Below are positions 46,740 to 52,055 of a stretch of DNA of 52,127 nucleotides, in pieces. The stretch comes from an uncultured Bryobacteraceae bacterium (lineage in GTDB: Bacteria > Acidobacteriota > Terriglobia > Bryobacterales > Bryobacteraceae). The DNA is taken from assembly GCA_955652915.1 (NCBI GenBank), contig CATPCJ010000157.1, positions 1-52,127 on the forward strand, in the 5' to 3' direction. Each line of letters begins with the position of its first letter. The first letter of the stretch is position 1. The notes beneath the pieces were generated by a model. The model was not told the DNA's origin and did no database searches. It saw only the letters and a list, made by a program, of their open reading frames with translations. The position numbers were made by a program, and so were the translations under genes.

Positions 46740-47219
46740 TTACTTCACGGGTGTGCCGTAGGGCACGAGCGTCTTCACCCGCTGCGCTGTTTCGACGCGC
46801 ATGATTTTCCAGCCTGTGGCGGTCTTTTCGAGATACATGTTTTGGGCTTCGTTTCGATCCTGATACACGTATTCCACGCGGGCCTTTACTTCCCGGGCGC
46901 TGACGATCTCCGGCGCCATGACCGCCACTCCCTTCAGCGCTGAGTTCGTCTCCTTAAGATACTGGCTGAAGGCGGAGCTCGATGACTCGGCAATCGATTG
47001 CCGCAACGATGTTTCCATCGATCCGCTGTAGGCCGCCACATACTTCTGCACGTCGCCTTTCCGGGCAGCGTCCAACATCGCGTAGATCGCGTCTTCGGGC
47101 GTCGCTTCCGCTATTCGCGTTGTCCGAAACGTCCAGCCGTTTTTCTTGGCAAGAGTCCCGCCCAGCACCGCCACCAGGATCACGACCGTGAGAATCCGAG
47201 CGATGCGTTGTTTGTTCAT
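46740..47219 (-). CDS. NTF2-like membrane-anchored protein at the end of the SPFH operon
   Basis: A 159-residue protein with an N-terminal helix (ILTVVILVAVLGGTLA) that is either an anchor or a signal peptide, then an NTF2/SnoaL-like fold of about 120 residues (ATPEDAIYAMLDAARKGDVQ; YLEKTATGWKIMRVETAQRV). It resembles the DUF4878 type of small exported NTF2-like proteins. It starts 12 bp after the second HflK-like gene, so it is likely part of the same transcript and may sit with the SPFH complex on the outer face of the membrane. Its role is unknown. Confidence 0.75.
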   Translation of the reverse strand: MNKQRIARILTVVILVAVLGGTLAKKNGWTFRTTRIAEATPEDAIYAMLDAARKGDVQKYVAAYSGSMETSLRQSIAESSSSAFSQYLKETNSALKGVAVMAPEIVSAREVKARVEYVYQDRNEAQNMYLEKTATGWKIMRVETAQRVKTLVPYGTPVK

Positions 47220-47231
47220 CGCGTCGGGCCC

Positions 47232-48182
47232 TTACTTCTCACCCCTGCGAATAATGGTGAGATCCAGATTTCCTTTATTGTCGACAATCAGCTTCTTGAT
47301 CTTCGGAAGAATTGTCTCCATTGTCTCCAGGTAAAGCCGTTCGCCATTCACTTGGCTGGCCTTGGCATACTCGCCGGCCACTTGCGTAAAGCGCTCCGCA
47401 TCGCCCTGGGCCTCATCGATCTTTCGTTGCCGGTAGCCCTGCGCGGCTTCGAGGAGTTGCTGGGCCTGGCCGCGCGCGCGCGGAATCACGTCGTTGGCGT
47501 AGCCCTGCGCCTCATTCACTATTCGCGCGGAGTCTGCCCGCGCACTGGCGACGTCCCGGAAAGCGTCGGCGGCTTCCGGTGGCGGCGTGACGCTTTCTAT
47601 ATTGATGGTCGAAAGCAGAACGCCCGCCCGATACTCGTCCAGCAGCCGTTGCGACGTAGCCCGAACGTCTTCTTGAATGGCCGCTTTGCCGCTGGTCAAA
47701 ATTGCATCGACGCTTTGCGCCGCAACCTTCTGGGCCAGCGCCGTCTCGACAGTTGATGCGACTACCTGCGCGACATTGCTGGTTCGGAACAGGTAATCGA
47801 CCGGTGAGGCGACGGAATACTGAACCACCACCCGCAAACTGATGATGTTCTGAACACCCGTGAGGAACTGCGAGCGCAAGGGCTGAGACCTTCCCACCAC
47901 CGTATCGGCAGCGTCGCCGCCGACCACCAACCGCTGCAGTTGCTGCACCTTCAGCCTCGTTACGCGGTCGATGGGCCAGGGCAGAGCGACATGAATGCCG
48001 GGAAGAACTCGCGGTTCCACCACCGCGCCAAAGCGCGTCACCACCGCCTGTTGCTGCGTGTTGACGAGGTACACGCCGGTCAGCAGCCACACAACCACGG
48101 CGGCAAAAATCCATTGGCGGAAACGCCGCCTGATCTGCGGCGGTGCAACCAGGGCGAGCTCGGGCTTAAGCAGAGCCTGCAT
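47232..48182 (-). CDS. hflK: HflK-like SPFH protein (second HflK of the operon)
   Basis: A 316-residue SPFH/prohibitin-family protein. One N-terminal membrane helix (WIFAAVVVWLLTGVYLV) is followed by the band-7 domain (PGIHVALPWPIDRVTRLKVQ; SVTPPPEAADAFRDVASARA) and the coiled-coil ending (QGYRQRKIDEAQGDAERFTQ; RLYLETMETILPKIKKLIVD). These features fit HflK rather than HflC. HflK and HflC form a large cage around the FtsH protease on the periplasmic side. No ftsH is nearby. Its start overlaps the HflC stop by one base (TAATG). Confidence 0.88.
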   Translation of the reverse strand: MQALLKPELALVAPPQIRRRFRQWIFAAVVVWLLTGVYLVNTQQQAVVTRFGAVVEPRVLPGIHVALPWPIDRVTRLKVQQLQRLVVGGDAADTVVGRSQPLRSQFLTGVQNIISLRVVVQYSVASPVDYLFRTSNVAQVVASTVETALAQKVAAQSVDAILTSGKAAIQEDVRATSQRLLDEYRAGVLLSTINIESVTPPPEAADAFRDVASARADSARIVNEAQGYANDVIPRARGQAQQLLEAAQGYRQRKIDEAQGDAERFTQVAGEYAKASQVNGERLYLETMETILPKIKKLIVDNKGNLDLTIIRRGEK

Positions 48183-49075
48183 TATTTCGCGCCGCTCTCA
48201 CCCCGCATCATGATGCGCAGCAACTCTGAATCGGAGCTGAGAATCGCGGTGGTCTTGTCATCGAAGATCTTTTTGTACGCCTCCAGCGTGCGCAGCAATT
48301 TATAAAAACGCGGGTTCTTGGAGTAGGCCGCGCTGTACGTACGCGTCGCTTGCGCGTCGCCTTCGCCCTTGATTTTTTCCGCCTCTTTGTAAGCGCCGGA
48401 CAGGATCTGTTCTTTCTGCCTATCGGCGTCGGCGCGAATGCGCAGCGCCTGCTCCTCCCCTTCCGCGCGGTATTGCCGGGCGATCCTTTCGCGCTCCGCC
48501 CGCATGCGCGCGTACACGCTTTGCTTATTCTGCTCCGGCAGATTCAAACGCTTAATGCGAACGTCGACCACTTGGATTCCATAGCGTTCCAGCGCGGCGC
48601 GATCGGTCAGATTCGTCAAGCTGTCCAGCAAGGTACTGGCTTGGACGGTCTCGGCCGTGGGAGCGATCAACGAATCCAGATCGTGTGTTCCGAGAGAAGC
48701 CGAGAGTCCCGACCATACGATGTCGTGCAAGCGCATCTCAGCCGCGCCAGGATCGCCGACGGTTTCGACGAACCGCTTCGGATCTTGAATCCGCCACGCC
48801 ACGTAGCTTTCGATAACCAGGTTCTTCTTATCGTGAGTCAGGAATTCCGAAGGCCGGGGATTGTAAACGCGCAGCCGCCGGTCGAAATAGTTTGTGCTCT
48901 GGAAGAACCATTTGGCATGCAGGCCGGCGTCCGTTACCGTGTAGAGCGGCCGGCCGAATTGAGTGATCAGCACGAACTCCGTCTCGCGCACGGAGTAGAA
49001 CGTCAACCAGACCAGGAGCAGAAGAGCGAGAGCGCCCGTCCATGGAAAATAGCGTTTGTATTTTTCTTGAATCAT
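48182..49075 (-). CDS. hflC: HflC-like SPFH protein
   Basis: A 297-residue SPFH protein with an N-terminal membrane helix (WTGALALLLLVWLTFYSV) and the band-7 domain. It carries the diagnostic HflC stretch VDVRIKRLNLPEQNKQSVYA followed by RMRAERERIARQYRAEGEE, and ends in the coiled coil (EGDAQATRTYSAAYSKNPRF). It sits between two HflK-like modules in one transcript: the one fused to the P-type ATPase just upstream (10 bp gap) and the free HflK downstream. HflC normally alternates with HflK in the cage. Confidence 0.92.
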   Translation of the reverse strand: MIQEKYKRYFPWTGALALLLLVWLTFYSVRETEFVLITQFGRPLYTVTDAGLHAKWFFQSTNYFDRRLRVYNPRPSEFLTHDKKNLVIESYVAWRIQDPKRFVETVGDPGAAEMRLHDIVWSGLSASLGTHDLDSLIAPTAETVQASTLLDSLTNLTDRAALERYGIQVVDVRIKRLNLPEQNKQSVYARMRAERERIARQYRAEGEEQALRIRADADRQKEQILSGAYKEAEKIKGEGDAQATRTYSAAYSKNPRFYKLLRTLEAYKKIFDDKTTAILSSDSELLRIMMRGESGAK

Positions 49076-49085
49076 GAAATTTTTC

Positions 49086-52055
49086 CTAATCGCCTGGTGG
49101 CCGGGGCCGCTCCGGCAAGATGCTGGGAATAGCGGCCGGAGCGAGCTCCACGCCGTCCTCCATCAACAACAGCGATCGGCGGCCTTTGCTGGCGTCGACG
49201 ATCATTTTTCGTTTCCCTGCAAGAATCTGTTCCATCGACTCCAGAAACAATCGCGCTTCCGTCAAGGCCGGCGCGGCGCGAAACGCCTCCTCGCTCTGCC
49301 CGAAACGGCTGGCGTCGCCCTCAGAACGGCTCTTGCGCCCGAGCGAGTAACCGTCGGCCTCAACTACACGGGCTTGAGCGCTTCCACGGGCCAGCGCGAC
49401 TTGCTCGTTGCGGTAGCCTTCCGATTCATTGATGAGCCGGTTCTTTTCCTCGAACGCGGCGGACACGTCGCGGAATGCATCCACAACTTCGAGCGATGGA
49501 TGCACATCCAGCAAGCGCGCGCCCAGCACTTCCACGCCTGCCTGGTAGCGGTCCAGCCGGCTCTGTAGCTCCGCGCGCAAGCGCGACTCCAGAGACAGGC
49601 GGTCGAACGTCAAGACGTTGTCGAGCGCGCTGGTGGTAGTGACCGATTGGAGCACCGACTCCGCGGCTGCGCGAACCGTCGCATCGCCGTCCATTTGCCG
49701 CAACAGGAAATCATCGGGCTTCCGCAGCCGGTAATGGATCACGGCGTTCACTTCGATCATGTTCAGATCGCCGCTGAGCATCAACGATTCCTCCGGCTTA
49801 GTCTGAAAGCGTCCGGTGCGATGCTGGACATTCCACTCGTAGGAGAGCGGTTCGGAGGTATCTTTGCCGGCGGAAGAGCGAAAACCGATCTCGACGGTGC
49901 GCACGCGGCCGGCCTGCACTCGCGTGAGCCGCTCGATTGGCCAAGGGAGCTTATAGTGCAGCCCAGGCTCGCGTAGCGGCAGAACCCTGCGTCCGAAGCG
50001 CTCGATCACGCCGGTCTCGCCGGGACGAAGCGCGTAGAATCCATTCAAGACGATCAGCGCGGCCGCGGTGAGCAAAACCGGGCGCGCCAATTCGCGACGC
50101 CGGTCGACGATGTTTAGAAAAAGGTCGCGTGCGTCGAACCTATCCATCCATCGGCGGAGACCGTGCCACACGAATTGCACGCGCGGATGCGCAAAGCATC
50201 GGAGACGCCGGACGCCCGTACCTTCGATGCGCAGCAGACGAAGCGAGTTCAGCATCACGAATAACGAAGAGAGCTGATGCGTAAAAGCAGCGCCCAAAGG
50301 CCCGATTACGCCCGTGGCAGCCGCGCCGACCGCCAATAGATTTACGACTCCCGCGAATAGAATAATGTTCTGCCATGCCGTGGCCACGGCCTTGCGGCTC
50401 ACTTCAAATAGCTTCGGCAGTTTCTCCAGCGAATGGCCGAGATACACCACATCGGCCGCCTCCGCCGTGATGTCGCTGGCCCCGGAGACAGCGATTCCGA
50501 CGTGGGCCGCGGCGAGCGCGGGCGCATCGTTGAGACCTTCGCCCACCATGGCCACGTGGTTTCCCTGCGCCATCCACCGGCGGACGTGATCCAGTTTTTC
50601 TTCCGGCAGAAGCTGTGACTCGACGAGCGGAATTCCGATTTCCCGCGCCACCGCTTCGGCAGCCCGGCGCCGGTCGCCTGTGAGCATGATCTGACGGGTC
50701 ATGCCCAACGCGTTCAAACCTTGTATCGCCTCTCGTGCGCCTTCGCGAATGCGGTCGCGCAGCAAAATCGCCCCGGCTAGCCGGGCGCCCTTTGCTACCA
50801 GAATGGCCGTTGCTCCCAGCCGATCCGCCTCTTCCAGCAGCGGCTCAAATCCATGGATTCCCGATTCTTCAAGAAAGGCGGCGTTTCCGGCGCGTACCGG
50901 CTCGCCATCGACCACGCATTCGGCGCCGCGGCCAGGAAGCACGCGCGCCTGCTCCGAACGGAAAAGCGCAAGATCCCGCCGGGACACTTCCTCATGAATC
51001 ACGCGAGCAAGTACGTGCTCCGATCCGCTTTCAGCCGCCGCGGCGAGAAGCAACAACTCAGGCTCGCCGACGCCGACTGGGATGACGCGCACAATTTCGA
51101 AGCGGCCCTCCGTTACGGTGCCGGTTTTATCGAACAGCACGGTGTCGATCTTGGCGGCTAGCTGCAGCACCGTGCCGCCTCGGACGAGAATACCTCGCCG
51201 GGCTAACCCCCCGATGGCCGCGACCATTGCGGTGGGCGTGGCCAGGATCAGCGCGCACGGGCACGCTACCAATAGCACAGCGACAGTTCGAAGCCAGTCT
51301 CGCGTGAAGTAGAAAGTGAGGCCGGCGGCGATCAGTAGTGCAGGCAGGAAGTAGCGCGCGAAGCGGTCCGCCAGACGCTCCACGGGCGCGCGCTGCTCGC
51401 TGGCTTCCTGGACCAGGCGGATCACGCGCGAGAGCGTGGTTTCATCGCCGGCGCGAGTCACCGAAATATGCAGCAGGGCGTTACCGTTCAAGGTGCCGGA
51501 GAAGACTTCATCGCCGGGCTGTTTCTCGCGCGGCAAAGACTCGCCGGTAATGGTGCTTTCGTCGATGCTCGAGATTCCCAGAGAGATCACGCCGTCGGAA
51601 GGGATTCGTTCGCCGGCGCGGACCACGATCTCGTCGCCCGGCGTGAGCGACGCCGCATCCACGTCGATTTCCTGTCCGCCGCGGAGCAATCGGGCGCGCC
51701 GCGGCATGCGCTCGACAAAACGGTGAATCGCCGCCGAAGTTCGCCCGGCAGCGTAGGCCTCCAATCCTTCGCCCAACAGCATGACGAACATGGCCTCAGC
51801 CGCCGCCAGGTATTGGCCGATCGCCAGCGCCGCGATGACCGCGATACAAATGGCGAGGTCCGCTGAGATGTTACCCCCGAGAAGAGCGGCAATGGAGTTA
51901 CGAAAAATCCGGTAGCCGCCGAGGACCGTGAGGATAGCCGCGGTATCGATTCCGAAAACTGTGGTGAAAATGCCGAGGAGGTTCAGTAATAGCAGGACAC
52001 CGACGATACCGGCGAAACCGAAATAACGAAGCCGCTCTCGACGCTCAGAATCCAT
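49086..52055 (-). CDS. P1B-type metal ATPase fused to an HflK-like SPFH domain
   Basis: A 989-residue single frame. Residues 1 to about 612 are a heavy-metal P-type ATPase: actuator TGES near 168, the metal-site CPC motif in VACPCALILATPTA near 264, phosphorylation site DKTGT near 307 and C-terminal helices ending FVMLNSLRLLRIE. There is no N-terminal metal-binding domain. After a linker (613-655), a membrane helix (PVLLTAAALIVLNGFYAL) leads into a complete HflK-like SPFH domain (GLHYKLPWPIERLTRVQAGR; VHPSLEVVDAFRDVSAAFEE) and its coiled coil. Two catalytic motifs deviate: MVGEGLNDAPAL instead of GDGxND, and SEHV instead of SEHP. It leads the operon with hflC and hflK. The likely role is metal transport tied to an SPFH scaffold; the metal is not evident. 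Confidence 0.9.
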   Translation of the reverse strand: MDSERRERLRYFGFAGIVGVLLLLNLLGIFTTVFGIDTAAILTVLGGYRIFRNSIAALLGGNISADLAICIAVIAALAIGQYLAAAEAMFVMLLGEGLEAYAAGRTSAAIHRFVERMPRRARLLRGGQEIDVDAASLTPGDEIVVRAGERIPSDGVISLGISSIDESTITGESLPREKQPGDEVFSGTLNGNALLHISVTRAGDETTLSRVIRLVQEASEQRAPVERLADRFARYFLPALLIAAGLTFYFTRDWLRTVAVLLVACPCALILATPTAMVAAIGGLARRGILVRGGTVLQLAAKIDTVLFDKTGTVTEGRFEIVRVIPVGVGEPELLLLAAAAESGSEHVLARVIHEEVSRRDLALFRSEQARVLPGRGAECVVDGEPVRAGNAAFLEESGIHGFEPLLEEADRLGATAILVAKGARLAGAILLRDRIREGAREAIQGLNALGMTRQIMLTGDRRRAAEAVAREIGIPLVESQLLPEEKLDHVRRWMAQGNHVAMVGEGLNDAPALAAAHVGIAVSGASDITAEAADVVYLGHSLEKLPKLFEVSRKAVATAWQNIILFAGVVNLLAVGAAATGVIGPLGAAFTHQLSSLFVMLNSLRLLRIEGTGVRRLRCFAHPRVQFVWHGLRRWMDRFDARDLFLNIVDRRRELARPVLLTAAALIVLNGFYALRPGETGVIERFGRRVLPLREPGLHYKLPWPIERLTRVQAGRVRTVEIGFRSSAGKDTSEPLSYEWNVQHRTGRFQTKPEESLMLSGDLNMIEVNAVIHYRLRKPDDFLLRQMDGDATVRAAAESVLQSVTTTSALDNVLTFDRLSLESRLRAELQSRLDRYQAGVEVLGARLLDVHPSLEVVDAFRDVSAAFEEKNRLINESEGYRNEQVALARGSAQARVVEADGYSLGRKSRSEGDASRFGQSEEAFRAAPALTEARLFLESMEQILAGKRKMIVDASKGRRSLLLMEDGVELAPAAIPSILPERPRPPGD

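Follow-up and report, generated by a model that had tools for sequence, protein, structure and literature searches.

In a soil bacterium of the family Bryobacteraceae, one protein is predicted to combine a heavy-metal pump with an HflK cage subunit. In the window (the whole stretch of 52,127 nucleotides that was analysed), a single open frame of 989 residues without internal stop lies at 49086..52055 on the minus strand, as do all features located below by position alone. The open frame, its domain matches and its conservation identify the product as a P1B ATPase-HflK fusion. When the translated protein was searched against Pfam, E1-E2_ATPase, Hydrolase and Band_7 were each found above the gathering score. 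The NCBIfam model of heavy-metal P-type ATPases (TIGR01525) matched residues 66-607 with 547.8 bits (curated cut-off 346.25 bits), and the hflK equivalog model TIGR01933 matched residues 673-964 with 189 bits (curated cut-off 159.4 bits). The domain search therefore recovered both halves above their cut-offs, in agreement with the original prediction that a full P1B ATPase and a full HflK are present within one unbroken chain. An N-terminal metal-binding domain is absent from the ATPase part.

The monomer of the fusion was modelled with AlphaFold from 35 sequences, with moderate confidence (pLDDT 74.7, pTM 0.56); confidence is low at the C-terminus and in a portion of the SPFH region. It contains eight ATPase helices, linker helices, a ninth helix (residues 653-670), the SPFH strands and a long helix (residues 855-926). 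TIGR01525, the modelled helices and Foldseek, whose top match for the ATPase model was the Zn-ATPase 4umw, place the ATPase part at residues 1-610 (50226..52055). E. coli HflK (7vhp_E) was aligned to residues 757-966 (E=9e-33) and, together with TIGR01933, supports an HflK SPFH and coiled-coil part at residues 673-964 (49164..50039). Between the two, an Arg-rich linker and a membrane helix (about residues 653-676) are predicted before the SPFH part (50028..50225). The ninth helix is thus predicted to be separate from those of the ATPase and not to be N-terminal in the chain, as expected if the SPFH part has a membrane helix of its own, which had been claimed from the sequence. In the fusions examined, the stretch before this helix contains more K+R than D+E. 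The model is consistent with a topology in which the ATPase end and the basic linker are cytoplasmic and the SPFH part is periplasmic, and this predicted topology would fit a pump tethered to an HflK/C cage.

Reading of the motifs revealed the CPC metal site (residues 265-267; 51255..51263), the DKTGT phosphorylation motif (residues 309-313; 51117..51131) and a TGE motif, and catalytic motifs are retained across the collected fusions. The claim that each half keeps its defining motifs holds for these three, but two other sites deviate. The window copy reads GEGLND (residues 505-510; 50526..50543) where relatives have GDGxND. This GEG (codon GAA) occurs in the window copy alone among the relatives whose motif was read; the sisters L036 and L069, which are 83-84% identical to the window fusion, have GDG. 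The substitution may indicate an impaired pump or a consensus error. In the nucleotide-site motif SEHP, which is usual for P1B ATPases but not strictly defining, the His is retained and the Pro is replaced in the fused proteins. The last ATPase helix carries HQLSS (residues 593-597; 50265..50279).

We searched for the same fusion in Acidobacteriota genomes. It is present in 57 of the 200 genomes of the order Bryobacterales, 49 of them with a single match of at least 854 residues and eight with matches broken by contig ends or indels. Across the phylum (396 genomes), 19 further genomes in three other families carry it with 43-46% identity. A set of named genomes yielded 31 further fusion loci, mostly from Bryobacterales, which partly overlap the genomes already counted. 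These genome searches covered Acidobacteriota, and other phyla were reached through plasmids, among which no P1B-HflK fusion covering 80% of the query was found. A division into two genes by a stop, which would have spoken against the original prediction, was not found in the relatives: the frame stays open down to 43% identity, in both sisters and in independent assemblies from several families. An assembly artefact was rejected on account of this conservation, and since the fusion is conserved, both halves are likely to be functional, as had been suggested. No publication describing transporter-HflK fusions was found in the open-access literature.

The only breaks seen among the relatives were contig ends, one frameshift and one in-frame loss within the ATPase. 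The frameshift lies between the two halves of the fusion (L146:4562-7572, genome G520). The in-frame loss gives an 840-aa fusion without approximately residues 326-520, which removes the catalytic ATPase part and leaves the HflK part intact (L063:5956-8478 and L147:3193-5715, probably the same contig). L135 and L136 were considered as the closest unfused ATPases of the order from which the fused one might derive, and were rejected as ordinary P1B genes without cassette neighbours and without HQxxS.

The fusion is followed on the same strand by genes for HflC (48182..49075; TIGR01932, 218.7 bits), a second, unfused HflK (47232..48182; TIGR01933, 225.4 bits), which has the same place in relatives, and a small NTF2-like protein (46740..47219). 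Fusion and HflC are separated by a 10-base gap, HflC and HflK overlap by one base, and a 12-base gap precedes the fourth gene; because of this close spacing, we regard the four genes as an operon. The fourth gene of the P1B cassette encodes a 159-aa protein, characterized by conservation, AlphaFold and Foldseek. A membrane anchor and an NTF2/cystatin-like fold were predicted for it (pLDDT 90.7), with weak Foldseek matches to NTF2-like folds and no Pfam family above the cut-off. The order fusion-HflC-HflK is retained in the loci with enough flank, and the small protein in most. HflC was detected in 59 of the 200 genomes of the order, namely in all 57 fusion carriers and in two others, G535 with a shortened HflC of the same cassette type and G480 with a distant split cassette (see below). 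No other HflC-type gene was found in the fusion carriers of the window's family, indicating that the cassette is the HflK/C of these bacteria. Two other families hold canonical hflKC besides the P1B cassette.

The window extends only 72 bp upstream of the fusion start codon. In relatives, the region upstream of the fusions contained neither a conserved gene or regulator nor a common palindrome, Zur-like or other; the sole recurring element there was the -10-like TGGCATAAT. Likewise, no zinc genes were found to be conserved beside the P1B-fusion cassette itself.

Several transporter-HflK architectures with exchangeable transporters exist, and the P1B fusion is one of them, which the original prediction had missed. 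Acidobacteriota HflC neighbourhoods contain the same three-gene set with an exchanged N-terminus of the first gene: a CDF cation efflux protein is fused to HflK in L081, L082 and L084-L088, and an ArsP_1 permease in L078-L080, L083 and L094, of which L078 passes the curated cut-off of the SO_0444 Cu/Zn efflux family. These modules occupy the same place before HflK as the ATPase (L078-type, L081-type), and their folds are unrelated to P1B. Metal-ligand motifs are retained in them. The CDF modules have HxxxD twice (8/8) and lack the usual C-terminal cytoplasmic domain, whose place is taken by HflK; CSC was found in the four ArsP modules with a readable N-terminus. Hence the transporter module is exchanged among relatives (P1B, CDF, SO_0444/ArsP_1), and the SPFH part and its two partners are constant. 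A profile of the first-gene HflK parts gave 30 matches in 392 genomes (E 4e-122 to 2e-97), all in frames of at least 593 residues, and unfused HflK starts at 3e-80, a gap that is partly by construction because many of the 30 matches are in or near the profile. In family f89 (L137-L141, L148, L149), an ArsP-HflK cassette occurs besides the P1B-HflK cassette, and canonical hflKC was not seen in these genomes. One ArsP_1-HflK cassette (L083:2961-6015) adjoins a ZnuABC-type zinc transporter (ZnuA, ABC-3), that of L094 has a ZIP gene as neighbour, and a CusB-type efflux gene lies near one ArsP cassette.

In the HflK tree, which is limited by long branches, the P1B-type fused HflK proteins form one clade (SH-aLRT 99). 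A single clade of all fused HflK was not rejected (p 0.645), and the constrained tree had a likelihood 4.5 units above the free quick tree; with the split forms added, the single clade was likewise not rejected (p 0.547). A single ancestral fused subunit whose transporter was exchanged later is possible on these trees.

In the split form, genes for X-HflK (X being an unassigned multi-helix N-terminal domain), HflC and HflK are accompanied by a separate P1B ATPase. It was found in two Acidobacteriota loci (X-HflK at L142:4314-6089 and L144:7385-9000) and on plasmids of the Pseudomonadota Klebsiella, Burkholderia, Paraburkholderia and Rhizobium (L150:8518-10224, L151:8224-10119, L152:8308-10128, L153:6116-8134). 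The ATPase is the fourth gene in L142 and on the plasmids; in L144, it comes after HflK, with X-HflK as the last gene. Zinc-type neighbours were observed at several of these loci: CobW in L142, ABC-3 in L144, and a GTP-binding protein with a zinc ABC transporter in L152. Judged by gene order and annotation, the split form would correspond to the P. aeruginosa locus PA2439-PA2435 with HmtA, which rises on zinc depletion (PMC4542158 Table 2; PMC11761036) and whose promoter is bound by Zur (PMC8531726). The hmtA locus shares with the window three HflK/HflC-family genes in an HflK-HflC-HflK type order and a P1B ATPase, but there the ATPase is a separate gene, whereas in the window it forms the N-terminus of the first HflK. 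The hmtA locus is zinc-linked and Zur-bound; no Zur site was found upstream of the fusions. The last-helix pattern H(Q/N)xx(S/T) together with CPC is common to fused and split cassette ATPases, and this helix pattern was not seen in the non-cassette ATPases compared. In the tree, the fused ATPases do not group as sisters of the split ones sampled. The comparison with HmtA is therefore based on operon order and a short motif, and the scaffold apparently acquired a P1B ATPase on more than one occasion.

As the best explanation, to which we assign about an even chance, we propose that a zinc-type metal transporter is hard-wired into a periplasmic HflK/HflC cage. The metal pump would be genetically tethered to one cage subunit, with the ATPase ending in the cytoplasm and the basic linker leading to the HflK helix and a periplasmic SPFH part. 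The latter would assemble together with HflC and the second HflK, forming a dome above the periplasmic mouth of the pump. Co-assembly and enclosure are suggested by analogy with the stomatin dome, which encloses aquaporin-1 and UT-B in red cells (PMC12407830). This structural precedent has an SPFH dome around membrane transporters, the way of working proposed for the cassette, but it is eukaryotic, non-covalent and on the cytosolic side, and stomatin is not a member of the family, whereas the cassette is covalent and would be periplasmic. A large ring may not have room for an eight-helix pump at every fused position. Like E. coli HflK-HflC-FtsH, the window has HflK and HflC at the curated level and an SPFH part predicted to be periplasmic; however, a single HflK without any transporter is present in E. 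coli, and the window has two HflK, one with a pump. Correspondingly, the canonical hflK-hflC operon consists of one unfused HflK and then HflC, in contrast to the fused HflK, HflC and second HflK found here. With ZntA/CopA, the fusion shares the P1B fold, CPC, DKTGT and TGE, but it differs in having no N-terminal metal-binding domain, no HP proline, an HQxxS last helix and a C-terminal HflK. The substrate would most likely be zinc or a close relative. Metal export, as originally proposed, is one of two conceivable directions: P1B, CDF and SO_0444 are export families, but the neighbours and HmtA point to zinc scarcity and import. We lean slightly towards release into the cage.

The opposite direction, in which the cage collects periplasmic zinc during zinc starvation and hands it to an HmtA-like pump, would be compatible with the rest of the caged-transporter explanation, and we regard it as a credible minority reading. 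It would account for the gene order of the zinc-starvation hmtA locus, whose HmtA was reported to be an importer (PMC4542158), as well as for the ZnuABC, CobW and ZIP neighbours of related cassettes and the common helix motif. However, P1B ATPases are exporters as a rule, the family names of the CDF and SO_0444 modules denote efflux, the CusB-type gene near one ArsP cassette belongs to efflux, and one study saw no response of hmtA RNA to added zinc (PMC8531726). That the fusion is a mere accident or artefact with functionally uncoupled halves is very improbable. Fusions of neighbouring membrane proteins do occur, and the unusual GEG of the window copy, the in-frame loss of the ATPase middle and the frameshift in L146 would agree with it, but this reading is contradicted by dozens of genomes from several families in which the fusion is conserved together with its catalytic motifs, and by other transporters fused at the same place.

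FtsH is a zinc protease, and the HflK part could instead recruit the pump to FtsH-HflK/C, so that FtsH would regulate the pump's abundance or quality, or would itself be served by the pump. In E. coli, FtsH is held and corralled by HflK/C assemblies (PMC12048511). The window genome encodes FtsH, and both SPFH partners are present and are the only HflK/C found there. Nevertheless, ftsH lies outside the cassette, most genomes of the order have no HflC of the cassette kind, and two other families keep canonical hflKC beside their P1B cassettes, which suggests a different role of the cassette. The published HflK contact residue Arg191 found no reliable placement owing to mismatched numbering. A link of the fusion to FtsH and protein quality control, as originally proposed, is possible, but none of the findings points specifically to it, and we consider recruitment to FtsH unlikely. 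We are similarly doubtful about a scaffold without enclosure, in which the SPFH part would cluster pumps in a lipid microdomain and set their density or lipid surroundings, the pump staying outside the ring. SPFH proteins mark microdomains, and with transporters of exchangeable type, conservation of specific contacts would not be required; but three co-conserved SPFH genes of HflK and HflC type point to a closed hetero-oligomer, and the structures known so far show closed or nautilus-like domes (PMC12407830, PMC12048511).

Returning to the caged transporter, these results suggest a little-known class of bacterial membrane cages around zinc-type transporters. In its full form, which we put at somewhat below even, it would comprise modular, FtsH-independent SPFH cages for metal transport, with an exchangeable transporter on HflK (P1B, CDF, SO_0444 permease, or an X domain with a separate P1B), a periplasmic dome and zinc-type ions as substrates. 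Three unrelated metal transporters on one scaffold suggest a principle, metal transport inside a membrane microcompartment. This bears on the question of what bacterial SPFH cages hold besides FtsH: the proposed cargo and the cage subunit are one covalent chain, and enclosure is therefore directly testable by structure. The proposal could also account for the three HflK/HflC-type genes, so far unexplained, that neighbour hmtA in P. aeruginosa; PaFlo5-PaFlo6-PaFlo7 of PA14 probably correspond to them. Outside Acidobacteriota, a cassette of CDF-HflK, HflC and HflK was observed on the alphaproteobacterial conjugative plasmid NZ_CP018172.1 of Aquibium oceanicum (L098:6001-9646), where a heavy-metal ATPase and an Nramp gene lie near by and the CDF-HflK protein is annotated only as HflK.
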